Positions 6,408 through 24,427 of a stretch of 64,000 nt of DNA are shown here, piece after piece (within the stretch, counting starts at the first letter, position 1; each line of letters begins with the position of its first letter). The DNA comes from Bacteroides fragilis NCTC 9343 (GTDB lineage Bacteria; Bacteroidota; Bacteroidia; Bacteroidales; Bacteroidaceae). The notes under the pieces were generated by a model that ran no database searches, was not told where the DNA came from, and saw only the letters and a list, made by a program, of their open reading frames with translations. The translations under genes and the position numbers were made by a program. The stretch covers positions 1,798,001 to 1,862,000 of the forward strand of contig NC_003228.3 in NCBI RefSeq assembly GCF_000025985.1, in the 5' to 3' direction.

Positions 6408-6750
6408 TGTTGGAGGTGTGGAAAATGTTTTTGCAACAAGGGTATATCCTTAGGTGAGAATAATATCGTAACAATTAACATTGTTAACTCCCCTTCTCAG
6501 CCATTTTTATTCTTGTGTGCAAATAACAAGTCTTTTGCATTTAAAACACTTGTTATTTGCATCTAAAGAATAAACTTTAACTTTGTGTTAAAACAAAGCT
6601 TTTACTGACAGATGTTTTGAACTTTTAATAGTTTGTATTTCAGCTTATTAAGTTTGATCTTTACTTCTTAGGCTCACTGAAGATCTCTGTAGACTAAAAC
6701 CGATATACTTGCTTTTTTGTCAACTACAAATCGGGGACTCATACTCCCTG
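6408..6750. other. Non-coding stretch with a 14-bp inverted repeat
   Basis: No gene was seen. It contains a perfect inverted repeat: TGCAAATAACAAGT at 6518-6531 and its complement at 6548-6561, with a 16-bp centre. There is no T-run on either side, so it is not an ordinary terminator. Confidence 0.5.
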
Positions 6751-7665: not shown

Positions 7666-7816
7666 ATTTGTTTTTTTTAGATTAGTTGTTTGTACTTTCA
7701 ATAATACATTAATATATTCACCACAAATTACTCCGGATTCCCAAAGACGTTTTCACTTGATTCCTTAAAATAGAAATCATTCATCTGTGAAAATCCGTGT
7801 AATCTGTGGTGGCGCC

Positions 7817-8164
7817 CTATACGATCGGTCGCCACTCCATGAAGTTCTCCACCTGGAATGTCGTCCATCGCTGTTCGTCCACATTCCAGTAGACTACTGC
7901 ACCTTCAATTTGTGTGGGATCATACTTCTTGTGGAATTCCGCTTCATAGTAGATCAGTGTCGCTTTCACCAACCTGAAGTCTCCGTTCTGCTTCTGATAA
8001 GCGATGGCTGCGTGCCCGTATTGCAGGTGGTCGGTCAACGCTTCCAGGCGTTCCGCCATCCATTCGGCACATTGTACGGTATATCCTTTCTCAAAGACAA
8101 TCCGTCTCTTCCATCTCAGTTTCATGGCTTCACTTTGTGATGCCGGTCTTTTTTTCCGTTTCAT
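7817..8164 (-). CDS. SH3-like barrel (WYL_2/DUF2693-type) small protein
   Basis: 115 residues. The basic N-terminal tail (MKRKKRPASQ) is followed by a compact beta domain: YQKQNGDFRLVKATLIYYE, then GAVVYWNVDEQRWTTFQVEN. This pairing (a 'knob' with a modified NGD turn, then tyW-D...W..F.v..) is the signature I associate with the WYL_2/SH3-like barrel family common in Bacteroides mobile and capsule-adjacent DNA. It lies between the Lin1244-type gene and a frameshifted small gene, all leftward. The function is unknown. Confidence 0.65.
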   Translation of the reverse strand: MKRKKRPASQSEAMKLRWKRRIVFEKGYTVQCAEWMAERLEALTDHLQYGHAAIAYQKQNGDFRLVKATLIYYEAEFHKKYDPTQIEGAVVYWNVDEQRWTTFQVENFMEWRPIV

Positions 8165-8234
8165 ACGTATATTTTTTAAGTTGATAAAATGTTATCGCCA
8201 CGAAGATAGGGGACGTTTCATGTAAGGCGGATTA

Positions 8235-8631
8235 TCATAATTCATTGTGCGTATTTTTGTGGATGGCGGGTTTGTGCTGTCTATTCTTTTCCACTTCTTC
8301 CCAAATGCTGCTGATATAGACTAATATTGAACTGATGGATAATGGTTTAAATACTCCGTTTTTAATATTTCCGATTAGTCTTTTTTCATTGATGTAGCGT
8401 GCGAGTGAAGCCTGACATGTATTGATATTTTGTATGTTCGCATCTTCTATGTAGGATTCTATCAACGCTTTGATAAGTTCTCCTTTATGCGAAATTATTC
8501 CACGTATCGGTATTCCTTTCTTTCTGCCTCTTGTTTCTTTAACTATTTCTGTATTAGATTGTTGCGCTTTGTTAATAGCGTTTTTTTACACTTTTGTCCA
8601 CAATCTGAAATAATCCTTTTTCTTTGTCCAT
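8235..8631 (-). pseudogene. Small unknown gene interrupted by a frameshift at an A7 tract
   Basis: An ATG at 8631 opens a frame (MDKEKGLFQIVDKSVKK) that stops after 19 codons, at 8572. Downstream of a run of seven A (plus-strand T, 8581-8587) the next frame stays open to 8235 and reads AINKAQQSNTEIVKETRGRKKG and onward for over 110 residues. With six A in the run the two parts join into one protein of about 131 residues. The downstream part has no ATG of its own (best start is a TTG at 8465), which supports a single broken gene. It could be a decayed gene, a sequencing error, or a slippage-controlled gene. The product is unknown; RGRKKG may be a basic DNA-binding patch. Confidence 0.6.
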
Positions 8632-8675
8632 AATTTCTTTTATTTTGTTAATAACTAAATGTTGTTAATTTGTTG

Positions 8676-8707
8676 CAAAGGTAGAAAGGAATCTATCGGT
8701 AGGCAAG
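8676..8707 (-). promoter_or_regulatory. Candidate fixed promoter of the leftward small-gene cluster
   Basis: Minus-strand TACCTTTG (8676-8683) fits TAnnTTTG, with CTTG (8704-8707) 20 nt upstream as an imperfect TTTG. Transcription would start about 38 nt before the ATG at 8631. This promoter lies outside the invertible segment and is therefore not switched. Confidence 0.5.
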
Positions 8708-8789
8708 TAAAGATGGAATTAAAGAGAAAATGAACGCTTCTGATTAGATAACTATTTGGTATATAGTATGATATTAATTGAAAAAGTGA

Positions 8790-8813
8790 GTGTTTCAATA
8801 GACGTTCGTTTAA
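8790..8813. repeat. Left inverted repeat of the invertible capsule promoter
   Basis: A 24-bp arm beginning GTGTTTCAATAGACGTTCGT. Its exact reverse complement is at 9001-9024. The inner part AGACGTTCGT fits the ARACGTWCGT core I recall for Mpi-inverted capsule promoters of B. fragilis. Confidence 0.9.
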
Positions 8814-9000
8814 TTGAACGCAAAGATAGGGGGTATTTTTAGAACTACAAAATGTTTAATAAAAAAAATGATTTTTCTCTTTTGATTGTTATCCCAATAT
8901 CTTAAACCACAGGTATTTATGAATTAACAAAAAACAGTTTATTATCTGTCTGATTTTGTTTTCTGTTCTCTTCTGATTTATATACAAAAATCATGTGTTT
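8814..9000 (-). promoter_or_regulatory. Invertible capsule promoter, present in the OFF orientation
   Basis: 187 bp between perfect 24-bp inverted repeats. On the minus strand it contains a textbook Bacteroides promoter: TTTG (complement of 8848-8851), a 19-nt spacer, and TATCTTTG (complement of 8821-8828). Transcription would start near the left repeat and run left, away from upxY. No TAnnTTTG box was found on the plus strand of the segment. Inversion, by an Mpi-type serine recombinase encoded elsewhere, would point the same promoter at upxY. The orientation may be mixed in the population; the assembly shows one state. Confidence 0.85.
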
Positions 9001-9024
9001 TTAAACGAACGTCTATTGAAACAC
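9001..9024. repeat. Right inverted repeat of the invertible capsule promoter
   Basis: 24 bp (TTAAACGAACGTCTATTGAA and four more bases), the exact reverse complement of 8790-8813. Confidence 0.9.
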
Positions 9025-9161
9025 TTTTTGTTTTCAATACCCTCGTTTAAAGGCTATTATAATAAATAACTATTTTCTGCCTCTCCTTCTGTGATAGTGG
9101 AGGGTCATTAAATAACATGGATGCACTGAATTTTTCATTAAAATCCGCATTACATAACTTG

Positions 9162-9189
9162 ACCGGGAGGTATGCTTCGCTACTCCGGT
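9162..9189 (+). promoter_or_regulatory. Leader hairpin upstream of upxY
   Basis: The RNA from ACCGG (9162) to CCGGT (9189) can fold on itself: ACCGG with CCGGT, then AG/GTA with TAC/T around two bulged G, with GC-ttc-GC at the tip. It lies in the 5' leader, 30 nt before the preferred upxY start. Leaders of this operon class are needed for UpxY antitermination, so a recruitment hairpin is possible. This is inference from position and shape. Confidence 0.4.
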
Positions 9190-9219
9190 GTCCCCAAAGA
9201 ACATCCTGACGTGAACGAC

Positions 9220-9810
9220 ATGACAACATCCGCATCTATCGAATCTTCGATGGAGCGTTCTCAATCCCTCCTGTCTTCTTCCGCTTTGAACTGGTATGCC
9301 TTGCGTATCACTTACGGGCGTGAACTGGCTTTGCAGGAGTACCTCAATTCGGAGGGGATCGAGAATTTCATCCCCATGCACTACGAATATACCATTAAAA
9401 ACGAGCGTCGGGTTCGTAAGCTTGTTCCCGCAGTTCATAATCTGGTTTTTGTCCGTTCCTCGCGTAGTTGTATCGATGCCATCAAAGAGAGCAAGGGCAC
9501 CACGCTTCCTATCCGTTACATTATGGACCGTGAATACCATCGTCCCATCATCGTTCCTGATTCTCAAATGCGTAATTTCATGGCGGTCTCTGCGAATTAT
9601 GATGAATCCCTGCTTTATTTCGAACCTTCCGAGTTGAACATCCGCAAGGGTACCCGTGTGCGTATCACCGGGGGGCTTTTCGAGGGGGTGGAGGGCGAGT
9701 TTGTCCGTGTCCGCAATGACCGTCGTGTCGTAGTCACCATTGAAGGAGTCATGGCTGTCGCCACCACTTTTGTCCATCCTTCATTGGTCGAACCTGTCAT
9801 CGAAAAATAA
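9220..9810 (+). CDS. upxY: Capsule operon antiterminator UpxY (NusG/RfaH-like)
   Basis: 196 residues from the ATG at 9220; the frame is open back to an ATG at 9172, but the family's conserved region starts only at WYALRITYGRELALQEYL. The N-terminal NusG domain holds that motif plus ENFIPMHYEY and LVPAVHNLVFVR. The C-terminal KOW domain reads KGTRVRITGGLFEGVEGEFV. UpxY proteins act on their own capsule operon, letting RNA polymerase pass early termination in the leader. It is first in the operon, directly behind the invertible promoter, and 11 bp before upxZ. The residues before WYAL are longer than usual, so a later start such as 9250 is possible. Confidence 0.93.
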   Translation: MTTSASIESSMERSQSLLSSSALNWYALRITYGRELALQEYLNSEGIENFIPMHYEYTIKNERRVRKLVPAVHNLVFVRSSRSCIDAIKESKGTTLPIRYIMDREYHRPIIVPDSQMRNFMAVSANYDESLLYFEPSELNIRKGTRVRITGGLFEGVEGEFVRVRNDRRVVVTIEGVMAVATTFVHPSLVEPVIEK

Positions 9811-9821
9811 CATAAAAAGAT

Positions 9822-10304
9822 ATGAACTATTTAGAATCCGAAATCTCCGCCCTTTATGCTTCTGCCCATGAACTTTGCTACTTAGGCATGGACGGTCGGC
9901 CGATCTACAGTGATCAATTCACCCGTCTGAATCGTGATGTTTTTTCTCAGGCTAATGCCTTGTACGACAAGCGTGGCAATAGTCATGAAGAAGAGGCCCG
10001 GTTGTGCCTGTCGCTCCTGATGGGATATAATGCGACTCTCTATAATAACGGTGACAAGGAGGAACGTATTCAGCATATTCTGGATCGTTGCTGGGATGTA
10101 CTGGAACATCTGCCTGCTTCTCTGTTGAAAGTTCAACTGTTAGTTTATTGTTACGGAGAGGTTTTCGACGAGGAATTGGCCCGGGAAGCTCAAGCTATCA
10201 TCGATACGTGGCAGGACAGAAAGTTGTCGGAAGAGGAGCGTGAGGTGGTAGAACGCCTGAAGGATGTGCAAGAGAATCCGTATCCTTGGAGTGAGGTGGA
10301 GTGA
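9822..10304 (+). CDS. upxZ: Capsule operon cross-inhibitor UpxZ
   Basis: 160 residues, acidic and largely helical ([50 protein letters not shown]). UpxZ proteins block the UpxY antiterminators of other capsule loci in the same cell, so that one capsule dominates. The identification rests on the family pattern together with its place immediately after upxY. No transmembrane or DNA-binding motif is visible. The operon continues to rmlA 32 bp downstream. Confidence 0.9.
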
Positions 10305-10336
10305 TATGTTTGTATAGTAATTTAATAAGTATATTG

Positions 10337-11227
10337 ATGAAAGGTATTGTCTTGGCCGGTGGTTCGGGCACTCGCTTATATCCGATCACCAAAGGAGTCA
10401 GTAAGCAGTTGCTTCCGATATTTGATAAGCCGATGATCTATTATCCTATCTCTGTACTTATGTTGGCAGGGATTCGTGAAATATTGATTATCTCCACTCC
10501 TTATGACTTACCCGGCTTTCAACGTTTGCTGGGTGACGGTTCTGACTTTGGAGTACGTTTTGAGTACGCCGAGCAACCTTCTCCCGACGGCTTGGCACAG
10601 GCATTTATTATTGGTGAGAAGTTTATAGGCAATGATTCTGTATGCCTGGTTCTTGGCGATAATATCTTTTATGGGCAAAGTTTTACCCGTATGCTGCGTG
10701 AAGCAGTCCATACAGCCGAATCGGAGAACAAAGCAACTGTTTTTGGTTATTGGGTAAGCGATCCCGAACGCTATGGTGTAGCGGAGTTTGACAAGGCTGG
10801 GAATGTTCTCAGTATCGAAGAGAAACCTGAGGTCCCTAAGTCCAATTATGCCGTTGTGGGTCTTTATTTTTATCCCAATAAGGTGGTGGAAGTAGCCAAG
10901 AGTATTCAGCCTTCCCCTCGTGGAGAATTGGAAATCACGACGGTCAATCAATGGTTTCTGTCCGATCGGGAACTGAAGGTCCAGCTTTTAGGGCGGGGTT
11001 TCGCCTGGTTGGATACAGGCACTCATGATTCTTTGTCCGAAGCAAGTACATTTATCGAGGTTATTGAAAAGCGCCAAGGGTTGAAAATAGCATGTCTGGA
11101 AGGCATTGCACTTCGTCAAGGGTGGATTAATTCTGATAAAATGAAGAAATTGGCTCAGCCTATGTCGAAAAACCAATATGGGCAGTACCTTTTGAAAGTA
11201 ATTGATGAATTAGCTGCAGACCAATAA
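10337..11227 (+). CDS. rmlA: Glucose-1-phosphate thymidylyltransferase RmlA
   Basis: 296 residues from the ATG at 10337 (an upstream in-frame start at 10301 overlaps upxZ and precedes the conserved start). It catalyses dTTP + glucose-1-phosphate to dTDP-glucose. Visible motifs are GGSGTRLYP at residues 8-16 (nucleotide-binding loop), [23 protein letters not shown] (metal-binding Asp), [19 protein letters not shown], and [14 protein letters not shown]. Length and motifs match the short RmlA class. The stop overlaps the rmlC start (ATAATGA region). rmlB and rmlD are not in this operon. Confidence 0.96.
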
Positions 11228-11802
11228 TGAATATAATAGAAACTGATATAAAGGGCCTTGTGATTATTGAACCTCGTTTGTTTCGTGATGAACGCGGTTA
11301 TTTCTTTGAATCTTTTAATCAAAATGTGTTTATAGAGAAAGTTTGTAAAACGATGTTTGTCCAGGATAATGAATCTAAGTCGAGTTATGGAGTGATTCGT
11401 GGTCTGCATTTTCAGAAACCACCTTTTGCACAAAGTAAGTTGGTCCGGGTTGTGAAAGGCTCTGTTCTTGATGTAGCTGTCGATATCCGCAAAGGCTCTC
11501 CCACATTTGGAAAACATGTTTCGGTTGAATTGACAGAGGATAATCATCGTCAGTTTTTTATTCCCCGTGGCTTTGCTCATGGCTTTTCTGTTTTAAGTGA
11601 AGAAGTGGTTTTTCAATATAAATGCGATAATTTTTATGCTCCTCAGTGTGAAGGAGCTATTGCTTGGAACGATCCTGATTTAGGTATTGATTGGAAAATA
11701 CCAATGGAGGAAGTCATTTTGTCAGAGAAGGATTCTTGCCATTCAGCCTTAAAAGATGCCGCCTGGTTATTTGATTATTATGATAAACAAGATATGCTCT
11801 AA
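11227..11802 (+). CDS. rmlC: dTDP-4-dehydrorhamnose 3,5-epimerase RmlC
   Basis: 191 residues, the usual size of a cupin-fold RmlC. RGYFFESFNQ (substrate loop), FVQDNESKSSYGVIRGLHFQ with catalytic His61, and FIPRGFAHGFSVLSE are all present. It epimerises C3 and C5 of dTDP-4-keto-6-deoxyglucose on the way to dTDP-rhamnose. It directly follows rmlA with a one-base stop/start overlap. Supply of its substrate requires RmlB from elsewhere in the genome. Confidence 0.95.
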   Translation: MNIIETDIKGLVIIEPRLFRDERGYFFESFNQNVFIEKVCKTMFVQDNESKSSYGVIRGLHFQKPPFAQSKLVRVVKGSVLDVAVDIRKGSPTFGKHVSVELTEDNHRQFFIPRGFAHGFSVLSEEVVFQYKCDNFYAPQCEGAIAWNDPDLGIDWKIPMEEVILSEKDSCHSALKDAAWLFDYYDKQDML

Positions 11803-11822
11803 GGCGGACATTGACAATTAAT

Positions 11823-12212
11823 ATGTTTTTAAATGAGTTAAAAGACATAGCTTGGCAGTCTGCTCAGATTGTGGAAGAGTATAATCCTGCTCGCATTCGT
11901 AAAGATGCCTGTGGAGCTTGGATTGCCTATGCTGATTTTAATAATCGCAATAGCCTCTTTGGATGGGAATTGGATCATATTTATCCTGTTTCGCGTCTAA
12001 AGTTGCAGAATGTACCGGAGGAACTGTGGGATAATCCGTTAAATATTCGTGCTTTTCATTGGCAGAACAATCAGAGTAAAGGTAATTCTTATCCTATGTA
12101 TACGGCTGTTGTTTCAGATGAAGGTGCAACCAATATGAAATGTGAAGCTGTTTATTTGGTGAATGAAGCATTACAATACAGCCTTCGCAAACTTTTTAAA
12201 ATAACCGAATAA
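11823..12212 (+). CDS. HNH-nuclease-like protein inside the capsule operon
   Basis: 129 residues from the ATG at 11823 (a TTG four codons earlier is the other option). The core has an HNH layout: WELDHIYPVSRL with D51-H52, then NPLNIRAFHWQNNQSKGNS with N74, H79, N83 and K86. His replaces the usual Cys at the 'C...N..K' step. HNH folds bind a metal and nick DNA or RNA, but such proteins in polysaccharide operons have no established role that I know. It sits in the middle of the operon between rmlC and ugd, with tight spacing, so it is co-transcribed. Activity is inferred, not shown. Confidence 0.7.
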   Translation: MFLNELKDIAWQSAQIVEEYNPARIRKDACGAWIAYADFNNRNSLFGWELDHIYPVSRLKLQNVPEELWDNPLNIRAFHWQNNQSKGNSYPMYTAVVSDEGATNMKCEAVYLVNEALQYSLRKLFKITE

Positions 12213-12231
12213 TCATTATTTATTATAGCTT

Positions 12232-13548
12232 ATGAATATTGCAATAGTAGGTACAGGCTATGTTGGGCTTGTATCAGGAACTTGCTTTTCCGAAATGGGT
12301 ATCAATGTTACTTGCGTGGATGTAGATGAAAAAAAAATCCAGAAACTTCAGGATGGTGTTATGCCTATCTATGAACCGGGGTTGGATGAATTGGTGGAGC
12401 GCAATGTCAAAGCCGGACGGCTCCATTTTACCACCGATTTAACTACTTGCCTGGATGAAGTGGAAATTATTTTCAGTGCGGTAGGTACTCCGCCGGATGA
12501 AGATGGCAGTGCCGATTTGAAGTATGTTTTGGAAGTGGCCCGTACAGTAGGGCGCAATATAACAAAACATATTGTTTTGGTTACAAAGAGTACTGTTCCT
12601 GTAGGTACGGCAAAGAAAGTTCGTGGGGTTATTCAGGAGGAGCTTGACAGGCGGGGTGTGAACATCGAATTTGACGTGGCATCCAATCCCGAATTTTTGA
12701 AAGAAGGAGCTGCCATTAAAGATTTTATGGCGCCCGATCGGGTAGTAGTCGGTGTTGAAAGTGCAAAGGCAAAAAAAATAATGGAGAGACTTTACCGTCC
12801 GTTTACCTTGAACGGTTATCCTATCCTGATGATGGATGTTGCTTCTGCTGAAATGACAAAATATGCTGCCAATGCTATGCTTGCCACACGTATCAGTTTC
12901 ATGAATGATATAGCTAACCTTTGTGAACGTGTTGGCGCTAATGTTGACAATGTTCGCAAGGGCATGGGGGCGGATTCCCGTATTGGAAGTCGTTTCCTCT
13001 ATGCCGGATGCGGCTATGGGGGATCTTGCTTTCCGAAAGACGTAAAAGCATTGGTTCATACCGGTATTCAGAATGGTTACCATATGCAGGTGATTGAAGC
13101 GGTTGAGGCAGTGAATGAAAAGCAAAAAAGCATTGTCTTTGATAAATTGCTGAATGCTTTTGGAGGAAACCTGCAGGACAAAACTGTTGCTATGTGGGGA
13201 TTGTCGTTTAAGCCTGAAACTGATGATATGCGTGAGGCCCCGGCGTTAGTTGTTATTGAAAAACTGTTGCAGGCTGGTGCTATCGTGAAAGTTTTTGATC
13301 CGGTTGCAATGGAAGAAACGGAACGCCGTATCGGCAAGCAGGTAATTTATTGCAAAGACATGTATGAGGCTGTGATAGATGCTGATGCCATTGCCTTGAT
13401 GACGGAGTGGAAACAGTTCCGCATGCCAAGTTGGGCAATCATCCGTAAAGCGATGAAGAATTTTGTTGTAGTGGATGGTCGTAACATTTATGATGGTGAA
13501 GAGTTGAAAGAGTTAGGTTTTACATATTCTCGTATCGGACAAAAATAA
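12232..13548 (+). CDS. ugd: UDP-glucose 6-dehydrogenase
   Basis: 438 residues. It oxidises UDP-glucose to UDP-glucuronate in two NAD-dependent steps. Seen: the Rossmann loop [10 protein letters not shown] (residues 6-15), [20 protein letters not shown], the catalytic Cys266 in [10 protein letters not shown], and the C-terminal UDP-binding domain ([24 protein letters not shown]). Length and order match the UDP-glucose/GDP-mannose dehydrogenase family. The next gene uses its product, so the two form a UDP-sugar branch of the capsule operon. Confidence 0.96.
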
Positions 13549-13557
13549 AAAACTTTG

Positions 13558-14499
13558 ATGAAACGAATTTTAGTAACGGGTGGTGCCGGATTCATAGGTT
13601 CCCATCTTTGTGAGCGTTTGCTCAATGAGGGTAATGATGTTATCTGTTTAGATAATTATTTTACAGGGAGTAAAGACAATATTCGTCATCTTCTGGATAA
13701 TCATAATTTTGAGTTAGTCCGCCATGACGTGACTACTCCTTATTATGCGGAAGTGGATGAAATTTATAATTTGGCTTGTCCGGCTTCTCCTCCCCACTAT
13801 CAATATAACCCGATTAAGACCATGAAGACTTCTATTTATGGTGCCATGAATATGTTAGGATTGGCTAAACGTACGAGGGCTAAGATTCTTCAAGCTTCTA
13901 CAAGTGAAGTTTATGGCGATCCTTCCATTCATCCACAGGTTGAGGCTTATTGGGGAAATGTGAATCCTATCGGCATCCGCTCTTGCTATGATGAAGGTAA
14001 ACGTGCTTCGGAAACCTTATTCATGGATTATCATCGTCAGAATGGGGTACGTATAAAGATTATTCGTATTTTTAATACCTATGGTCCTCGAATGAACCCG
14101 AATGACGGGCGTGTGGTGTCTAACTTTATTGTTCAGGCTTTAAGGAATCAGGATATTACAATTTACGGTAATGGTAGCCAGACCCGTAGTTTTCAATATG
14201 TGGATGATTTGATTGAAGCAATGACCCGGATGATGGCTACGAATGATAGTTTTATCGGTCCGGTCAATACAGGTAATCCAAGTGAATTTACGATGCTTGA
14301 ATTAGCTCAAAAAGTAATAGACTTAACTAATTCAAAATCTAAAATTGTTTTTTGTCCGTTGCCAAGTGATGATCCTAAACAGCGCAAACCGGATATAAGT
14401 CTGGCAAAAGAAAAGCTGGCAGGGTGGGAACCTCAAATAAAGCTTGAAGAAGGACTGAAGAAAACGATTGCATATTTTGAGCAGAAAATAGATGAGTGA
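13558..14499 (+). CDS. UDP-glucuronate decarboxylase (UDP-xylose synthase)
   Basis: 313 residues from the ATG at 13558 (the TTG three bases earlier is less likely). An extended short-chain dehydrogenase: [10 protein letters not shown] (NAD loop), [20 protein letters not shown] (diagnostic of UDP-xylose synthases), STSEVYGDP, and catalytic Y144 and K148 in [11 protein letters not shown], followed by [15 protein letters not shown]. It converts UDP-glucuronate to UDP-xylose via a 4-keto intermediate. It follows ugd at 9 bp, giving a complete UDP-glucose to UDP-xylose route. The product or its keto form is probably polymerised in the capsule. Confidence 0.93.
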
Positions 14500-15931
14500 G
14501 TCTTTAAAACATCAAGCCGTTAAAGGTATGGTGTGGAGCGCTGTAGAACGATTCTCTGTTCAAGGTGTTCAGTTTATTCTTGGTATTATTATTGCCCGTT
14601 TGGTTTCTCCTTCTGAATATGGATTGATAGCTATGTTGGGGATATTCCTCGCTATAGCACAGACTTTTATAGATAGTGGTTTTTCGAGTGCATTGATTCA
14701 GAAAAAAGATAGGACGGATATAGATTATTCTACAGCGTTTTATTTCAATCTTGCTATAGCTGTTATTGTTTATGGCATTCTGTTTTTAACTGCTCCACTT
14801 ATTGCAGATTTCTATGAAGAATCGCAGTTGGAGGTTATTACAAAATGGATTGGACTAAATTTAATAATATCAGGATTTTCTATCGTTCAGCGTGCGAAGC
14901 TTACTGTGAAACTTGACTTTAAAACACAAGCTAAAGCCTCGTTGCTTGCAGTCCTGTTTAGTGGAGTAGTAGGAGTTGTATTGGCATATAAAGGATTTGG
15001 CGTATGGGCATTGGTGATACAAGCATTATTAAATAATTTATTAGATACGTTGTTGCTGTGGATTTGCACTAAATGGATGCCATCATTTGTATTCTCGTGG
15101 AATTCTTTTAAAACTTTGTTTTCATTTGGATCAAAACTTCTTTTATCTGGTTTATTGCATACTGTTTATATTAATTTATATAGCTTGGTTATTGGTCGGA
15201 AATATTCGGCTACAGATGTTGGATATTATAATCGTGCTTATTCTTTAGCACAGTTTCCTTCAATAAATATTGTGGGCATTATTACTAGGGTTATTTACCC
15301 GGTGCAATGTGAAATGCAAGGTGATGATGAACAATTAAATAGATCTTTTATTCAGTATCTTCGTATATCTTGTTACATCATTTTTCCATTAATGGTTGGC
15401 CTGTCAGTATTGGCAAAACCCTTGGTTCTTGTATTATTGACAGAGAAATGGTTGCCCATGTCAGATTTGCTTTCTATTCTTTGTATTGCCTATATGTGGT
15501 ATCCCATGATGGTTATTAATAATCAAATATTAAACGTAAAAGGGCGTGCTGATTATTTTTTGAAAGCTGAGATCATAAAAAAAATATTGGCTATAGGAAT
15601 TTTAGTGACAACAATTCCATTTGGAATAAAAATACTTTGCTTAGGCGTTTTATTGTATAATCTTTTAGATGTCATTATTATAATATACTTTGCAAAGAAA
15701 GTTGTATTGACAGGGTATTTTCAACAGATAAAGTCGGTACTTCCTCTCTTAATGTTATCTTTAGGCATGGGAGGATGTACTTATATTTTTATGCATTTAT
15801 TTACTAATCCATGGATTCAGCTTTTTATAGGTATTCTTATTGGGCCTATTTCATATTTTATATTTAGTTGTTTTTTCCGTATAAGAGAATTTAAACTTGT
15901 TTTATCTATTGTAAAAAGAAATAGATTGTGA
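14492..15931 (+). CDS. wzx: Polysaccharide unit flippase (Wzx-like, MOP/PST family)
   Basis: 479 residues with about 14 predicted membrane segments. The N terminus ([39 protein letters not shown]) is typical of the PST branch of the MOP exporters. It would flip undecaprenyl-linked repeat units across the inner membrane. The start overlaps the previous stop by 8 bp. From here to about 22 kb the base composition drops to strongly AT-rich and stays so through the glycosyltransferases, as usual for exchanged capsule cores. Confidence 0.9.
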
Positions 15932-15934
15932 AGT

Positions 15935-16120
15935 ATGAGTACATTGGCTATGGCAGTATATAATGTTAAAAGGTATATTGAACAAGTTTTACTATCAGCA
16001 TTGAATCAAGTTTTTGAGAGTGTTGAATGTCTTATAAATAATAAGAAGATAGTACGAAGATTATTTAAATATATGGTGGAGAGGGGAAAACTTGTATGTA
16101 TAATTAAATCTGGAATTTAG
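15935..16120 (+). pseudogene. Remnant of a family 2 glycosyltransferase
   Basis: 61 codons. The first ~35 (MAVYNVKRYIEQVLLSALNQ followed by VFESVECLI) match the start of GT2 enzymes (vPVYNve.YieecllSAlnQtfesiE.li). The reading then jumps to a tail (KKIVRRLFKYMVERGKL) that resembles a GT2 C terminus. The DDGS/DxD catalytic region and about 200 residues are missing, so an internal deletion joined the ends. It lies between the flippase and an intact GT8 gene and cannot be an enzyme. Confidence 0.65.
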
Positions 16121-16125
16121 TAATT

Positions 16126-17052
16126 ATGGATATAGTGCATTGTATAGATAATAGTTATGTCGCTCAATGTGGAGTAACTATAACTTCTGTTTGTGTGAAT
16201 AATGTAAATGAAGTAATTCTATTTCATATATTGACAACTAACTTATCGATCTTCAATCGAGAAATGTTAAAAAAAATAGTGGATAAGTATAGACAAAAAA
16301 TAATATTTTATAATGTAGATGAGTATCTTTTGAATAAATGTCCTCTACGTGAAGGAGATCATGTTAGCTTAGCCACTTATTTTAGAATTCTGATGCCGGA
16401 TATTTTGCCTAAGAGTTTAAATAAAGTTTTGTATCTAGATTGTGATTTAGTTGTTTGCAAGAATATCAAACGTTTATGGGATACAGATATTTCAACCCAT
16501 TCATTAGGAGCTGTGTACGATGGAGGCACAGATGATATTCGAACTTATAATCGCTTGAAATACGATATTCGACAAGGGTATTTTAATGCAGGCGTTCTAT
16601 TGGTTAATTTGGCATATTGGCGTGAATTTCATATTTCTAATAAGTTGTTAAAGTTTATAGAGCAATATCCTGAGCGTTTAATGTTTTGGGATCAAGATGC
16701 TTTAAATAGTGTTTTGATTCAAACGACTAAAATTTTACCTTTTAAATATAATATGTTAGATGCATTTTATACAAAGGAATTAGCTTTACGAGAAGAGTAC
16801 TTGTTTGAAATAGAAGGAGCATTGTGCGATCCTACTATTCTTCATTTTTCATCTCCTAATAAACCTTGGCTCAAAACATGCGATCATCCTTTGAAATCTT
16901 TCTTTTTTGAATATTTGAAAAGAACATCTTGGAATGATAAATTCCCAATATATCCATTTAATATGAGTCTCAAAAGTCGTTTATGTTTGTTTTTGTGGAA
17001 TAAGGGGATTGTACTTAGTAGAAAAGAATTAAAATATCGTGAATTGTCATGA
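16126..17052 (+). CDS. Family 8 glycosyltransferase
   Basis: 308 residues. MDIVHCIDNSYVAQCGVTI is the usual N terminus of GT8 retaining transferases. The metal-binding DxD is D105-C-D107 in LYLDCDLVV. Further conserved blocks are YFNAGVLLVNLAYWR (GT8 'NAGV.l.nl..WR'), WDQDALNSVL, and HFSSPNKPW with the C-terminal His. It would add a hexose from a UDP-sugar to the lipid-linked unit at the cytoplasmic face. The stop overlaps the next start by 4 bp. Confidence 0.9.
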   Translation: MDIVHCIDNSYVAQCGVTITSVCVNNVNEVILFHILTTNLSIFNREMLKKIVDKYRQKIIFYNVDEYLLNKCPLREGDHVSLATYFRILMPDILPKSLNKVLYLDCDLVVCKNIKRLWDTDISTHSLGAVYDGGTDDIRTYNRLKYDIRQGYFNAGVLLVNLAYWREFHISNKLLKFIEQYPERLMFWDQDALNSVLIQTTKILPFKYNMLDAFYTKELALREEYLFEIEGALCDPTILHFSSPNKPWLKTCDHPLKSFFFEYLKRTSWNDKFPIYPFNMSLKSRLCLFLWNKGIVLSRKELKYRELS

Positions 17053-17963
17053 AAACTGCTGTACTTTTTTTAGTCTTTAATCGTCCAGATACTACTGTTC
17101 GTGTATTTGAAACAATTCGGCAAGCCCGTCCTCCTCGTCTGTATGTAGCTGCGGATGGTCCTCGTAAGAATAGAACAGATGAAAATGAAAAATGTGAAAA
17201 AACTCGTTCTGTAATTAAACAAATAGATTGGAATTGTGAAGTCAAAACATTGTTCCGTAATGAAAATTTGGGTTGTGGAAAAGCCGTTAGTGAAGCTATT
17301 ACCTGGTTTTTTGATCAGGAGGAAGAAGGTATTATATTAGAAGATGATGTATTGCCTCATTCCGATTTCTTTTCTTATTGTGAGGAGCTATTAGAGAAAT
17401 ACAGGGATACTGAGCAGGTTGGGTTTATTTCTGGGCGTAATAATCTTTATGGAGATAGAGTAAGTGACGATTCTTATTTTTTTTCGCCTATTAATCATGT
17501 GTGGGGATGGGCTACTTGGAGAAGAACGTGGAAGTTATATCAGTTTGATATAAGAAATATACCTTTTTCTAAATTTGAGAAAATAGTAAATGAATATTAT
17601 GATGAAAAGAAAGTTAGAAGGTATTGGAGTTTAGTTTATAAAATGATGAAATATAATCTTATAGATACATGGGATTATCAACTTTCCATAATTCTATATA
17701 TGAATAGAATTTATTCTATTGTACCTAATATAAATATGATACAAAATCTTGGCTTAGGAGAAAATGCCACGCATACTGTAACGGTTGATTATAGAGAAAA
17801 AAACTATTCTGGCAAATCTATTCTTCCACTAATGCATCCGCAAGAAATATGTGTAAATAAATTAGGGTTAAGAAAGGAGGTGGAATTTGAACGTCTATAT
17901 GTTTCGTTGAAAGGATATTACTATGTGTTGTTAAGACTTTATTTGAAAAAAATGAAAAAATAA
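17049..17963 (+). CDS. GT-A fold glycosyltransferase
   Basis: 304 residues. MKTAVLFLVFNRPDTTVRVF starts a family of capsule transferases often annotated as glycosyltransferase family 2-like or HlpA-like. LYVAADGPRKNR follows, then the acidic metal site E98-D99-D100 in IILEDDVLPH, and VWGWATWRRTW, a conserved acceptor-side motif in this group. No membrane segments are seen. It overlaps the preceding GT8 gene by 4 bp and the following gene by 1 bp. The sugar specificity cannot be read from the sequence. Confidence 0.8.
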   Translation: MKTAVLFLVFNRPDTTVRVFETIRQARPPRLYVAADGPRKNRTDENEKCEKTRSVIKQIDWNCEVKTLFRNENLGCGKAVSEAITWFFDQEEEGIILEDDVLPHSDFFSYCEELLEKYRDTEQVGFISGRNNLYGDRVSDDSYFFSPINHVWGWATWRRTWKLYQFDIRNIPFSKFEKIVNEYYDEKKVRRYWSLVYKMMKYNLIDTWDYQLSIILYMNRIYSIVPNINMIQNLGLGENATHTVTVDYREKNYSGKSILPLMHPQEICVNKLGLRKEVEFERLYVSLKGYYYVLLRLYLKKMKK

Positions 17964-18916
17964 TGAATAAGTACTCAATTCTATTACTGAAAACTATCCG
18001 TAAGCTCTATACAAAGTGTAGAAATAATTTTGGTGAGCATTGCTTGAGTTATGAGACTAATCCAGATATTGTTTCCGAGCGAATTTTTAACTTATTATCG
18101 AATGATAACCCTTGTATGATAGCTCGTTTAGGAGGTACAGAGTTAAATGCTATGGCGAATTATTTAGGGGTTAGCCAATATCGAAATTCTTATCTATCTT
18201 TTATAAAACATAGGACACCTGCTTGGTGGTGGGAATCTTATGTGAAAAATAACATGATGATATATAGTGGATTCTTTCCTATTTCTGAAGCTTCTCTAAC
18301 TAAGTTTGCCAAAATGATGATTGAAGATTGTGCTCTGGTAGATATATTAGGCTCTTGGAGAGCAGAAGAACTTTATTTTCAAAAGGAACTTCGTAATACT
18401 TATAAGGTTGGTTTAAGTCTGTTGGAGCCGTGGTGGGCAGATAAACCATGGACAAGGATTCTTACTGGAAAGAATGTGCTTGTTGTTCACCCATTTGCAG
18501 ATAGTATATGGCAACAATATCACTACAAACGTGAAAAATTATTTCGTAATGACTCCATTCTTCCTGTTTTCAATTTGAAAGTATTGAAAGCAGTGCAATC
18601 TTTAGGTGGAAATTCTAATTATAATGATTGGTTTGAAGCTTTGGAATATATGAAAAAAGAAATAGATAAAGTAGATTATGATATTTGCTTAATAGGTTGT
18701 GGAGCTTACGGTTTTCCATTGGCTGCTCATGTGAAAAGAACAGGTAAGAAAGCAATTCATCTAGGAGGAGGACTGCAATTATTGTTTGGAATTCGTGGAA
18801 AGAGATGGGATATGCGGGATGAATATAAATCTTTGATGAATGAATATTGGATTAGACCTTCTGAAGATGAAACGCCTGTAGTAGCAAAAAAAGTGGAAGG
18901 TGCTTGTTATTGGTAA
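17963..18916 (+). CDS. Unknown capsule gene, possibly a GT-D-like glycosyltransferase
   Basis: 317 residues, soluble, with no signal peptide. The segment CMIARLGGTELNAM resembles the 'RfGdGE' metal/nucleotide site of GT-D fold (DUF1792) transferases. Later, VLVVHPFADSIWQQY and DYDICLIGCGAYGFPLAAHVKRTGKKAIHLGG look like Rossmann-type strands, with an Asp-rich turn as in that fold. It lies in the glycosyltransferase run, overlapping its upstream neighbour by one base. A transferase is the best guess, but I do not recognise it with certainty. Confidence 0.55.
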   Translation: MNKYSILLLKTIRKLYTKCRNNFGEHCLSYETNPDIVSERIFNLLSNDNPCMIARLGGTELNAMANYLGVSQYRNSYLSFIKHRTPAWWWESYVKNNMMIYSGFFPISEASLTKFAKMMIEDCALVDILGSWRAEELYFQKELRNTYKVGLSLLEPWWADKPWTRILTGKNVLVVHPFADSIWQQYHYKREKLFRNDSILPVFNLKVLKAVQSLGGNSNYNDWFEALEYMKKEIDKVDYDICLIGCGAYGFPLAAHVKRTGKKAIHLGGGLQLLFGIRGKRWDMRDEYKSLMNEYWIRPSEDETPVVAKKVEGACYW

Positions 18917-18929
18917 ATTTTAATATTGT

Positions 18930-19727
18930 ATGGAATATTTTTTACCTTTGATTTCTATCGTAACCATATCTTATAATGCGGTTAATCTTATTGAGAAAAC
19001 AATATTAAGTGTTGTTGAGCAGGACACAGCTGATTTTGAATATATTGTTATTGACGGGGGAAGTACAGATGGAACTGTTGAAGTAATCAGAAAATATGAA
19101 AATGCTATTTCATATTGGGTCAGTGAATCTGATAAGGGAATATTTGATGCTATGAATAAGGCACTGTCGGTTGCTAAGGGGGATTGGGTCATTTTTATGA
19201 ATAGTGGAGATTGCTTCTATAATAATCATGTTCTTTCTGAAATAGCTATTTACATGAAAGATGAAGAAACTGAACTTATATATGGAGATGTAAATTTATT
19301 CTCGGGTAAGCGGAATTTTATCTTTAAACAAAGGGTCTCAGGCATTAATATAAATTTGAATTCAGTTTGTCATCAGACGGTATTCATACGTAGAAAATTG
19401 CATCCTTATTTTGATGTGCGTTATAAACTGACGGCAGATCATGATATTATATTTGATTTCATAAAGAGGGGACAGTATATTCATGCTAATATAGTAATAG
19501 CAAAGGTTTTATTGGGTGGAGTTAGTCATGATGTTATTAAAACTAGTCTGGAAAAATTACTCATTTCTTACCGGAAAGGCACTTTTATGGATTTGTTATT
19601 ATCGCCTCTTTGTAATATTTATCAGGTAATTAAATATTTTGTTAAGAAATTGCTAATCAGTGCTCTCCCTATTGAACTATTTAATAAAATGTCACGTATG
19701 AAATCGAAAATGGAATCGAATTTTTAA
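18930..19727 (+). CDS. Family 2 glycosyltransferase (WcaE-like)
   Basis: 265 residues. ISIVTISYNAVNLIEKTILS, the UDP-binding YIVIDGGSTDGTVEVI, SESDKGIFDAMNKAL and MNSGDCFY (in place of DxD) are the markers of the colanic-acid WcaE-type GT2 group. An acidic pair follows in LTADHDIIFD. It transfers a sugar in the cytoplasm to the growing lipid-linked repeat unit. The stop and the next start overlap by one base (TAATG). Confidence 0.88.
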   Translation: MEYFLPLISIVTISYNAVNLIEKTILSVVEQDTADFEYIVIDGGSTDGTVEVIRKYENAISYWVSESDKGIFDAMNKALSVAKGDWVIFMNSGDCFYNNHVLSEIAIYMKDEETELIYGDVNLFSGKRNFIFKQRVSGININLNSVCHQTVFIRRKLHPYFDVRYKLTADHDIIFDFIKRGQYIHANIVIAKVLLGGVSHDVIKTSLEKLLISYRKGTFMDLLLSPLCNIYQVIKYFVKKLLISALPIELFNKMSRMKSKMESNF

Positions 19728-20863
19728 TGAAAAATCCGGCGTTTTTCTTTTCTTCTGTTTGGGTAATGGTTCTGTGGCTTTATAGTCACCATTATGCTTT
19801 GGTTTTGGAAAATTTGAAACAAGAAACAGGTATTTTCATATTATTATCTATCACTGTTTTTTCTTTACCGTTTTTTTTATCCTTTTATCTAAAAAACAGA
19901 AAAGAGTACTCCTTAATATTATCCGGAAAGTTAGATGTTAAACTGAAAAAACTTTTAAAATGTTGGATATTGTTTTCTTTTGTTGAAATTCTTGTTTTTC
20001 GTTCATTGCCTATATTATCTTTTGCTGGAGTTGAATCCTTTTATACAGAATGGGGAATTCCTAGTCTGCATGGATTACTCAATGCAATAATTATAACAAT
20101 ATCGAATATTATTTTTTATAAATATATGGTACATAAAAAGAAGAAATATTTGATATTTTATTTTTTATGTTTATGCTGGCCTATTTTGTTGTTAACAAGA
20201 CAAGTTCTGATGAGCATGATATTACAAATGGGGCTTATTTATTTGTATTGCAATAAGATTCAAATTACAAAAATATTTCGATCTGTAGCTATTGGTATCA
20301 TTGTCATAGTGTTATTTGGTTTATTGGGAGATTTACGCTCTGGAAAAGATGCTATGGAAAACATAGCTGGTATTTCAGATGACTATCCATCTTTTCTACC
20401 CAGTGGCTTTATATGGGTATATGTCTATGTAACTAGTCCTTTGAATAATTTGAATCATAATTTATATTTATATCCTGATTTAAACTTCTTACCGTTGATT
20501 GCTTTTGGAAATTTATTTCCATCTTTTATAAGAGAAAAACTGTTACCTAACAATATAGGAGTCGCTACAGATTTGGTTAATGATAATTTGAATGTGATGA
20601 CTATGCACCCTCAGTATCTCAGTGCTTTTGGCTATTTAGGAGCGTTAGTATTTTATTTTCTTTATGGGTGTTTTGTTTTTTATGTTTATCTGAAATTTAG
20701 AAAGGAGAGCAATGCTAAATGGATGTTTATGACCGTTGTTCTTACACATAATCTCATTTTATCTGTTTTTGTGGATTTCAATATTAATCTTGTTTTTTTA
20801 TTTCAACTATTTCTTCACTATTACTTAGGAACTAACTTTTCATTAAAACGTATAGAACGTTAA
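19727..20863 (+). CDS. wzy: Probable polysaccharide polymerase (Wzy-like)
   Basis: 378 residues with about 10 hydrophobic segments and a larger central extracytoplasmic loop (roughly residues 205-290, LLGDLRSGKDAMENIAGISD onwards). This topology, with no soluble domain, is typical of Wzy polymerases, which are poorly conserved in sequence. DLRSGKD and the later loop residues resemble the O-antigen polymerase loop. It is the only multi-pass protein in the operon apart from the flippase and the initiating transferase, which supports the role. Confidence 0.75.
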   Translation: MKNPAFFFSSVWVMVLWLYSHHYALVLENLKQETGIFILLSITVFSLPFFLSFYLKNRKEYSLILSGKLDVKLKKLLKCWILFSFVEILVFRSLPILSFAGVESFYTEWGIPSLHGLLNAIIITISNIIFYKYMVHKKKKYLIFYFLCLCWPILLLTRQVLMSMILQMGLIYLYCNKIQITKIFRSVAIGIIVIVLFGLLGDLRSGKDAMENIAGISDDYPSFLPSGFIWVYVYVTSPLNNLNHNLYLYPDLNFLPLIAFGNLFPSFIREKLLPNNIGVATDLVNDNLNVMTMHPQYLSAFGYLGALVFYFLYGCFVFYVYLKFRKESNAKWMFMTVVLTHNLILSVFVDFNINLVFLFQLFLHYYLGTNFSLKRIER

Positions 20864-20870
20864 TTTATCA

Positions 20871-21650
20871 ATGTCGGATATTTTAAAATTTTCTGTAGTT
20901 ATTCCCGTGTATAATGGGAGTAATACAGTGACAAGAGCAGTTGATTCTTGTTTGAAGCAAACTACTTTGCCATGGGAAATTATCATTGTAAATGATTGCA
21001 GTAAAGATAACACGTTAGATGTCTTAATTGAAAATTATCAAGGGAATAATATCGTGAAAATATATTCTTTACCAAAGAATAGTGGAGTTTCTGTTGCTCG
21101 AAATTTAGGGTGGGACAAGGCAACCGGAGATTTTATTGCTTTTTTGGATGCTGATGATGTGTGGCATCCGTCCAAATTAGAAGTTTTGAACGAATTGAAG
21201 CATGGTTATAAGGATGTTTCTTGTATTGCTCATAAATACACTGAGAATAGCTTGCCTGAAGAAAAAAAAATCATGCCAAAATGTAAAATTTTGAAGTTTA
21301 GACATTTTTTAATTCGTAACTATTTTAATACTTCTTGTTTGGCTGTTTGTAAATGTATCGGAGAGAGATTTAATGAAACTATGAGATATACTGAGGATCA
21401 TGACCTTTGTCTTAGAATAGCAAATAAAATGAATATATATTATATTGATTTACCATTGACATCCTTAGGGAGACCACAGCTATCTAAGGGGGGGCTAAGT
21501 GGTAATCAATGGGCTATGAGGAAAGGAGAAATGAAATTATACTTTCATGCTTGTAAGCTTCGTTGGTGGCTTTTCCCTTGTCTGCCTCTCTTTTTTCTTT
21601 TTTCTATTGCAAAACACCTGTTAAAACTTGGAATGAGATGTATGAAATAA
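20871..21650 (+). CDS. Family 2 glycosyltransferase
   Basis: 259 residues. FSVVIPVYNGSNTVTRAVDS, IIIVNDCSKDNTLDVL, and the DxD block FLDADDVWHPSKLE are all intact, followed by YTEDHDLCLRIANKM with the catalytic-base acidic pair. The C terminus has a hydrophobic, basic end (LRWWLFPCLPLFFLFSIAKHLL) that may lie against the membrane. The last 13 bp overlap the next gene in another frame. Confidence 0.9.
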   Translation: MSDILKFSVVIPVYNGSNTVTRAVDSCLKQTTLPWEIIIVNDCSKDNTLDVLIENYQGNNIVKIYSLPKNSGVSVARNLGWDKATGDFIAFLDADDVWHPSKLEVLNELKHGYKDVSCIAHKYTENSLPEEKKIMPKCKILKFRHFLIRNYFNTSCLAVCKCIGERFNETMRYTEDHDLCLRIANKMNIYYIDLPLTSLGRPQLSKGGLSGNQWAMRKGEMKLYFHACKLRWWLFPCLPLFFLFSIAKHLLKLGMRCMK

Positions 21651-22456
21651 CTGCTACTATTGTTACATATAAGAATCCTGATTCTGTTTTATTGAAAGCT
21701 ATCAATAGCTTTTTGAATACAAAGTTGGAAGTACGGTTATATATTATTGATAATTCTCCCACAGATTATTTAAAAGATATTTCTTATGATCCTCGGGTAG
21801 AGTATATTTTTATGAACTCGAATAATGGCTTTGGAGCCGGACATAATGTTATATTGAGAGATCCTGAAAAGATGGGAAAATATCATTTAATACTAAACCC
21901 AGATATATCATTTGAGGAAGGGACTTTGGAGAAGTTATATGATTACATGGAGGGTAAGCTGGATGTGGGAAATGTAATGCCTAAGGTTATTTATCCTAAT
22001 GGGGAATTGCAATATTTATGTAAGCTTCTTCCTACGCCAAAAGATTGGATAGTTCGTATGTTTCTTCCTATTAAAAGCATCAAAAACAGAATTGACTATA
22101 ATTTTGAAATGAAGTTTGCAGATTATGATAGAGAAATGAATATTCCTTATTTATCAGGCTGTTTTATGTTTCTTCGGAAATCTGTGATAGAAGGAATTGG
22201 AGTGTTTGATGAAGGTATTTTTATGTATGGAGAAGATACAGATCTGAATAGGCGTATTTATCGGAAATACAAAACGATGTATTATCCTCAAGTAACTATA
22301 ACTCACCATTTTGAGAAAGGATCTCATAAAAGTTTACGTTTATTGTGGATACATGTAAAGGCTGCTATTTATTATTTAAATAAATGGGGTTGGTTCTTTG
22401 ATAAAGAAAGAAGTATAATAAATATAACAGTGAAGCAACAATATATTAGAAAGTAA
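21638..22456 (+). CDS. Family 2 glycosyltransferase (rhamnosyltransferase-like)
   Basis: 272 residues from the ATG at 21638, which overlaps the previous stop by 13 bp; the frame is open further upstream, but those codons belong to the previous gene's coding region. It shows ITATIVTYKNPDSVLLKAI, YIIDNSPTDYLKD, NNGFGAGHN, LNPDISFEEGTLEKL (the NPD in place of DxD) and MYGEDTDLNRRIY with the acidic catalytic pair. NPD/GxGxxxN is typical of rhamnosyltransferase-like GT2 enzymes and would fit the rmlA/rmlC genes, but substrate use is inference. Confidence 0.88.
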   Translation: MYEITATIVTYKNPDSVLLKAINSFLNTKLEVRLYIIDNSPTDYLKDISYDPRVEYIFMNSNNGFGAGHNVILRDPEKMGKYHLILNPDISFEEGTLEKLYDYMEGKLDVGNVMPKVIYPNGELQYLCKLLPTPKDWIVRMFLPIKSIKNRIDYNFEMKFADYDREMNIPYLSGCFMFLRKSVIEGIGVFDEGIFMYGEDTDLNRRIYRKYKTMYYPQVTITHHFEKGSHKSLRLLWIHVKAAIYYLNKWGWFFDKERSIINITVKQQYIRK

Positions 22457-23364
22457 TGATAGATAGAATGAATCTTCTTTTTACAGGTGCTTCTGGCTTC
22501 TTGGGGTATAATGTACTTCCATTATTGAAGAAAAAGTATTCAGTAGAAACTATAGGACTAACTTCTCAGGATGATTATATAGTGAATTTAGCAGCAGAGA
22601 TTCCTAAGTTGGCCGGAAAATATGATGTTATATTGCATGTTGCAGGAAAAGCACACTCTCTGCCTAAGACGGAGGCAGAGAAACGACTTTTTTTTGATGT
22701 GAACCTTCAAGGGACTAAGAATTTGTGTACTGCTTTGGAACAAAGTGGCATTCCGAAGTCATTCATTTTTATTAGTACTGTTGCTGTTTATGGTTGTGAT
22801 TCGGGTGAGAATATCACGGAAGAATATCCTTTGAATGGAACAACTCCTTATGCTCTGAGTAAGATCAAGGCGGAGAAATATCTGGAAGAATGGTGTGCCA
22901 TGCATAATGTGAAATTAAGTATACTTCGTCCTTCTTTAATTGCCGGTCCTAATCCTCCGGGAAATCTGGGAGCAATGATCCATGGGATTAAGAGTGGTAA
23001 GTATTTGAGTATTGCCGGAGGAAAAGCTCAAAAGAGCGTTTTGATGGTTCAGGATATAGCTAATCTTGTTCCTCTATTGATTGAAAAGGGAGGGATATAT
23101 AATGTTTGTGACAGTTACCAGCCGAGTTTTCGTGAACTGGAGATGGTGATATGCAAACAATTGAATAAGAAGTTACCTTTGTCTATTCCTTATTGGTTTG
23201 CTAAGAGTATGGCCGTTTTTGGTGATTGTTTCGGGGAAAAGGCTCCAATAAACAGTTTAAAACTTCGTAAGATCACGCACTCTTTGACTTTTAGTAATGA
23301 AAAGGCAATGCGGGAGCTTGGATGGAAGCCTATGAATGTTCTGAAAAATTTTCGGATAGAATAA
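22456..23364 (+). CDS. NAD-dependent sugar epimerase/4-reductase (WbpV-like)
   Basis: 302 residues (or 298 from a second ATG at 22468). An extended SDR: LLFTGASGFLGYNVL (NAD loop), HVAGKAH, FISTVAVYG and the catalytic Tyr/Lys in TPYALSKIKAE. The set resembles UDP-4-keto-6-deoxy-HexNAc reductases (WbpV/WreQ type), which make UDP-QuiNAc or UDP-FucNAc for a WbpL-type initiating transferase. Such a transferase is encoded just downstream (23480), which supports this pairing. A simple C4 epimerase is the alternative. Confidence 0.8.
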   Translation: MIDRMNLLFTGASGFLGYNVLPLLKKKYSVETIGLTSQDDYIVNLAAEIPKLAGKYDVILHVAGKAHSLPKTEAEKRLFFDVNLQGTKNLCTALEQSGIPKSFIFISTVAVYGCDSGENITEEYPLNGTTPYALSKIKAEKYLEEWCAMHNVKLSILRPSLIAGPNPPGNLGAMIHGIKSGKYLSIAGGKAQKSVLMVQDIANLVPLLIEKGGIYNVCDSYQPSFRELEMVICKQLNKKLPLSIPYWFAKSMAVFGDCFGEKAPINSLKLRKITHSLTFSNEKAMRELGWKPMNVLKNFRIE

Positions 23365-23377
23365 GGAGGTGCTCTAA

Positions 23378-23476
23378 ATGGAAATTTTTCTTTGGATTAT
23401 AGGAATTCTAATAGGGATTTTTTTCGCCTTTTTAGGACTTCAATTCTTGTTTTATTTCATTAAAAAGAACGAATAG
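23378..23476 (+). CDS. 32-residue single-span membrane protein
   Basis: An ATG at 23378 follows a perfect AGGAGG (23364-23369, spacing 8 nt), the strongest ribosome site seen in this operon. The 32 codons encode MEIFLWIIGILIGIFFAFLG, then LQFLFYFIKKNE: one hydrophobic span of about 25 residues and a positively charged tail predicted to stay in the cytoplasm. It ends three bases before the start of the initiating transferase gene. The tight fit and strong ribosome site indicate a real small protein, perhaps a partner of that membrane enzyme. I know of no characterised homologue. Confidence 0.7.
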   Translation: MEIFLWIIGILIGIFFAFLGLQFLFYFIKKNE

Positions 23477-23479
23477 TTT

Positions 23480-24427
23480 ATGTACTATCTGATAATCTTA
23501 GTTCTGCTATTTCTGGCAGAACTTTTTTATTTTCATATTGCCGATAAATATAATATTATCGACAAACCGAATGAACGGAGTTCGCATACCCGGATTACAC
23601 TGCGGGGTGGAGGAATTATCTTCTACTTGGGTGCATTGGCTTATTTTCTGACAAATCAGTTTGAGTACCCTTGGTTTATGTTGGCTCTCACTCTGGTGAC
23701 GGTGATCAGCTTTGTAGATGATATCCGCTCCATATCACAAGGACTTCGTCTTGTTTTTCATTTTACGGCGATGGGCTTGATGTTCTATCAGTGGGAGTTG
23801 TTTACTCTTCCCTGGTGGACTGTAGTTGTGGCTTTGATCGCATGTACGGGGATTATCAATGCCTATAATTTTATGGATGGAATTAATGGCATCACGGGGG
23901 GATATTCGCTGGTTGTACTTGGATCTTTGGCGTTTATCAATCATTGGGTTGTTTCGTTCGTTGAACCGGGTTTGATTTATACCATGCTGTGTGCGGTGCT
24001 GGTTTTTAATTTCTTTAATTTCCGTAAGAGGGCAAAATGCTTTGCCGGTGATGTGGGGTCGGTCAGTATTGCTTTTATTATTCTGTTTTTAATCGGTAAG
24101 CTGATAATCGATACGGAAGATTTTAGTTGGATTGTGCTTCTGGCAGTATATGGAGTAGATAGTGTGCTGACTATTGTCCATCGATTGATGTTGCATGAAA
24201 ATATTGGTTTGCCTCACCGGAAACATTTGTATCAGATAATGGCTAATGAACTGAAGATACCTCATGTCGCGGTATCATTGACCTATATGGTGGTGCAGGG
24301 CGTAGTTGTGGCGGGATACCTGGTATTACGGGAGTACGGATATGTATATTTGGCAGGAAGCATATTGCTGTTGAGTATATTATATCTGTTGTTCATGAAG
24401 AGATTCTTTCAACTGCACCAGTTTTGA
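23480..24427 (+). CDS. Initiating sugar-1-phosphate transferase (WecA/WbpL family)
   Basis: 315 residues with about 10 membrane segments. Family motifs: DKPNERSSHT (residues ~28-37), RGGGIIFYLG, FVDDIRSIS (the DD metal site), NAYNFMDGINGI, and the cytoplasmic PHRKHLYQ loop. These enzymes move a sugar-1-phosphate from a UDP-sugar to undecaprenyl phosphate, starting each repeat unit. The specificity is likely the amino sugar made with the preceding SDR enzyme. It is the last gene of the capsule operon, as usual in Bacteroides. Confidence 0.93.
   Translation: MYYLIILVLLFLAELFYFHIADKYNIIDKPNERSSHTRITLRGGGIIFYLGALAYFLTNQFEYPWFMLALTLVTVISFVDDIRSISQGLRLVFHFTAMGLMFYQWELFTLPWWTVVVALIACTGIINAYNFMDGINGITGGYSLVVLGSLAFINHWVVSFVEPGLIYTMLCAVLVFNFFNFRKRAKCFAGDVGSVSIAFIILFLIGKLIIDTEDFSWIVLLAVYGVDSVLTIVHRLMLHENIGLPHRKHLYQIMANELKIPHVAVSLTYMVVQGVVVAGYLVLREYGYVYLAGSILLLSILYLLFMKRFFQLHQF

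Follow-up and report, generated by a model that had tools for sequence, protein, structure and literature searches.

The capsule operon in the 64,000-nucleotide window of Bacteroides fragilis NCTC 9343 analyzed here (the whole stretch of DNA examined) is preceded by a perfect inverted repeat that encloses a promoter, an arrangement that raises the questions of whether this promoter is a switch, which enzyme would turn it and in which state the sequenced DNA stands. As set out below, the enclosed segment is almost certainly the invertible PSF capsule promoter, with the recombinase Mpi as the enzyme that inverts it. The features that bear on this reading are collected in Table 1.

Table 1. Features of the PSF promoter region and its flanking genes (window positions)
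Feature	Position	Strand	Details
Left inverted-repeat arm, 25 bp	8789..8813	+	Mpi-type core AGACGTTCGT at 8800-8809
Right inverted-repeat arm, 25 bp	9001..9025	-	Perfect reverse complement of left arm; core at 9005-9014
187-bp segment between arms, probably inverting	8814..9000		
Promoter TTTG-N19-TATCTTTG	8821..8851	-	Bacteroides type; points left, away from capsule genes
upxY (upfY)	9172..9810 (start maybe 9220)	+	NusG-like antiterminator; NF033644 181 bits, cut-off 100; PF02357
upxZ (upfZ)	9822..10304	+	Antiterminator antagonist; PF06603 161 bits
15 more ORFs	10301..24427	+	Taken as PSF biosynthesis genes
g1	8631-8235	-	DUF1670-like (below cut-off)
g2	8164-7817	-	WYL_2
g3	7701-6751	-	Lin1244_N

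An earlier note, made from the bases alone, had described perfect 24-bp arms spanning 8790-9024 around 187 bp; the perfect match and the spacing hold, but one base had been missed on each side. Among perfect inverted repeats of the window whose arms lie 100-400 bp apart, this 25-bp one is the longest; in 20 simulated Markov-1 sequences of 64 kb the maximum was 15 bp. Each arm contains a match to ARACGTWCGT, the motif that the note gave for Mpi targets. Three matches to this motif are found in the window against 0.27 expected, and the largest number in 100 shuffles was two. The third match, at 53298-53307 on the minus strand, has no partner. The repeat surrounds one promoter, its cores have the spacing of about 170-200 bp expected of an Mpi-controlled capsule promoter, and a promoter reading in the ON direction would meet upxY and upxZ first.

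The promoter within the segment carries the TAnnTTTG sequence that PMC4747536, in the passages used here, gives as the -7 consensus of Bacteroides promoters. It is the single complete promoter that had been claimed, on the minus strand and pointing away from upxY (8851-8821), and a motif scan found no Bacteroides-type promoter on the plus strand of the segment. When 8814-9000 was flipped in silico, the same promoter appeared on the plus strand from 8963. By itself, the motif could be a chance occurrence in 64 kb, as one exact match to TTTG-N19-TAnnTTTG on both strands compares with a simulated mean of 0.6 and a largest count of four. What gives it weight is that it sits inside the repeat and recurs at sister loci. 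A sigma-70 scan, which gave five matches against 3.1 expected, proved ill-suited to Bacteroides promoters and was set aside.

The promoter reads left, away from the plus-strand genes upxY and upxZ to its right, and the DNA was therefore sequenced in the OFF state. The OFF call made from the bases alone was correct, which speaks for the method; the accompanying statement that the orientation of the operon can be read from the sequence is true of the sequenced DNA and does not extend to the population, of which only one state is visible. In the proposed mechanism, Mpi would act on both arms and could rejoin the 187-bp segment either way round. Once flipped, the single promoter would point right, with transcription starting near 9000 and proceeding through upfY and upfZ into the biosynthesis genes. 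As sequenced, the capsule operon would be left without this promoter, and little or no PSF would be expected.

From upxY through 24427 there are 17 plus-strand ORFs, excluding a nested ORF at 9296-9637, which fits upfY and upfZ followed by 15 genes. The predicted products among these 15 include a nucleotidyl transferase, epimerases, a UDP-sugar dehydrogenase, a flippase and glycosyltransferases (the Pfam scan took in 11 of the 15, two of which had no match). An Rfam search over 6500-10500 gave no match at gathering scores. The locus sits between those taken as PSA and PSB, which fits PSF, and PSC is presumably the capsule locus without an inverting promoter. The order of the seven invertible capsule loci, together with the CDS numbers in Table 1 of PMC3090145, identifies the locus as PSF (CDS 1551-1565).

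An mpi-type serine recombinase gene, whose presence in the genome the earlier note had proposed as a check, is indeed found at C1:3237951-3238541. Its 197-residue product scores 318.5 bits against NF009949, the NCBIfam equivalog "master DNA invertase Mpi family" (cut-off 272). It stands head to head with a gene for a tyrosine recombinase, which we name after published descriptions in which mpi/finA adjoins tsr19 (passages of PMC4747536 and PMC3090145), and two further genes nearby occupy the places of the WbaP-like and Wza-like proteins described in part of PMC3090145, from which their names are taken. According to passages of PMC12632263 and PMC4747536, seven of the eight B. fragilis capsule promoters invert by means of one invertase, Mpi; the former credits Krinos 2001 and Coyne 2003 for capsule promoter inversion.

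The same layout recurs at other capsule loci of the NCTC 9343 genome. On both strands genome-wide, ARACGTWCGT occurs 78 times, compared with 50 for a reversed control pattern, and core pairs are present at PSA, PSB, PSE, PSG and PSH as well as PSF. The exact core motif misses PSD. At this locus (L079, operon-oriented positions 5424 and 5629) the core takes the variant forms AAACGATCGT and ACGATCGTCT, with a palindromic ACGATCGT, and the copy in genome G134 (L080) is alike; exchange between PSD and the other capsule sites might be limited by this variant core. Including PSD, we found 13 Mpi-type promoter segments, seven at capsule loci and six elsewhere, near 89.8, 91.9, 129.4, 1442, 4866 and 4868 kb, by a search that was guided by exact matches to the core and by resemblance to PSF and may miss further variant sites. 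The published count of regions for Mpi is also 13 (a passage of PMC4747536), an agreement in number. Judged from the direction of their promoters, PSA and PSE are ON and PSB, PSD, PSF, PSG and PSH are OFF. The ON call for PSA agrees with the state given for the reference genome in the relevant part of PMC10939037.

Comparison with other genomes supports inversion at sister loci. The PSA-type segment is ON in NCTC 9343 and B. fragilis S82 (G017) and OFF in B. fragilis Q1F2 (G022), and the PSE-type segment is ON in NCTC 9343 and OFF in both other strains; segments of these two types thus stand in both orientations between genomes, which shows, by comparison, that inversion occurs at those loci. 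The whole PSF segment is 99% identical in S82 and 93% identical in Q1F2 and is OFF in all three genomes, so that no inversion at PSF itself is seen among them.

Among 157 genomes of the genus, 27 encode a protein with 69% or more identity to Mpi (a line set after viewing the list, at its gap to 57%), 22 contain the paired-site pattern and 20 have both. The Fisher p value for this co-occurrence, 2e-17, is overstated, the genomes being related. The exact site pattern is absent from seven of the 27 genomes with a close Mpi, and a close Mpi is absent from two of the 22 with the pattern, both incomplete assemblies. The reversed control gave one match each in 16 of the 157 genomes, and so single site-pattern matches may be due to chance. 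One match in G016 looks to be inside a gene.

Orientation was scored from 73 loci, comprising 70 of the 89 exact-pattern matches and three variant-core loci; the other 19 matches lay at contig ends or in a gene or were not listed. Thirteen loci lacking a upx match within 2.5 kb, one lacking the required site pair and two lacking a callable promoter were dropped. Each assembly displays a single orientation state, and of the 57 scored loci, 43 are OFF and 14 ON (binomial p 0.00015), although several come from close relatives and are not independent events. None has promoters in both directions. Two loci of G048 (L082 and L083) have a site pair before upx genes and no promoter match of the usual form.

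At PSF the OFF promoter points at g1, and one could suppose that the switch works two ways, with the OFF promoter driving a conserved leftward set, g1, g2 and g3 (8631-6751), such that OFF is a second ON state. Consistent with this reading, no terminator-like site was found on the minus strand of 8500-9300, and 14 of 21 loci compared have g2 and g3 in divergent orientation next to the segment, 12 of these also having g1, though 14 of the 21 loci had been selected for resemblance to the PSF segment. Moreover, among the seven loci of NCTC 9343 the five that are OFF are the five whose left neighbor points left. This match failed across the genus. Among the 55 of 57 scored loci that could be classed, 23 OFF loci have a leftward and 19 a rightward neighbor, compared with six and seven ON loci (Fisher p 0.75), with left-neighbor ORFs picked by length, a procedure that errs at some loci; an earlier version with shorter ORFs gave 20 and 22 for OFF and again six and seven for ON. 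In addition, at PSD, in G022 (L076) and in G134 (L080), a full consensus promoter belonging to g1 lies outside the repeat; upstream of g1 at PSF, a -7 box alone is seen. Because orientation is independent of the direction of the left neighbor, we do not claim a two-way switch and regard it as unlikely. A partial survey of the literature on these genes, on invertible promoters that act in two directions and on switching at homopolymers did not find the leftward set, and we make no claim that it is unpublished.

The g1 gene itself is unusual. The frame opened by its ATG runs for 18 to 20 codons and stops just beyond a run of A; the body of the gene lies in another frame with no usual start beside it. 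Each of the eight PSD/PSF-type copies read at the 5' end has the identical offset, and in three PSG-type copies the ATG and the body are likewise in different frames; nine of the 19 g1 proteins found in the protein database have a single open frame. For the g1 body, dN/dS is 0.15-0.32 in comparisons of distant copies, where dS (0.9-1.4) is close to saturation, and 0.38-0.96 within the PSF-like group of L042, L074 and L078, of which L074 has one further stop; in the same pairs, g2 gives 0.05-0.13. Slippage, recoding or decay may each account for the offset. The fuller proposal that the locus has two useful states, with capsule-OFF being ON for the leftward set and g1 carrying a second switch or recoding site at the homopolymer, is decidedly improbable.

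The preferred reading, inversion of a capsule promoter by Mpi, can also be questioned as to its agent and as to whether the segment moves. Another recombinase could invert the segment, for example the adjacent tyrosine recombinase (Tsr19) or a plasmid resolvase, as the genome contains three serine recombinase genes above the Pfam cut-off and at least one tyrosine recombinase gene, the latter named from the papers. However, the passages of PMC4747536 and PMC12632263 cited above credit the seven PS inversions to Mpi, and the site pattern tracks Mpi across the genus, which makes a different agent very improbable. That this is a non-inverting repeat (a hairpin, attenuator or relic) is scarcely credible, even with PSF seen in one orientation in its three genomes, given that PSA- and PSE-type segments are found both ways round and that PMC3090145, in the parts consulted, describes seven loci with conserved invertible regions, shotgun data of 638R that contain both orientations, and inversion that is active in NCTC 9343 as well.

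Inversion of the PSF segment by Mpi can be set against known systems at three distances. Among serine invertases and resolvases (Tn3, gamma-delta and Tn552 bin3), Mpi matches the solved chains 5cy1, 2r0q and 4m6f over nearly its full length; unlike those enzymes, it is reported, in a passage of PMC4747536, to have 13 target regions in one genome. In B. thetaiotaomicron and other Bacteroides, part of PMC12632263 describes CPS loci whose upstream promoters lie between inverted repeats. For B. thetaiotaomicron the likeness is the one described there; within the genus, paired Mpi-type sites occur in 22 of 157 genomes. The closest counterparts are the published Mpi-controlled PS promoters of B. fragilis, with which the PSF segment shares the strain, arms, core, promoter, upxY, upxZ and the Mpi gene, no difference having been found. 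A figure legend in PMC5729914 refers to an invertible promoter of PSF for strains 638R and HMW615, and this, together with the seven such loci found in the present genome, places PSF among the published seven. Our contributions are accordingly the count of orientations over part of the genus and the negative test of the two-way reading, and the PSF switch itself, already known, appears to be one of the seven capsule switches described in the species.
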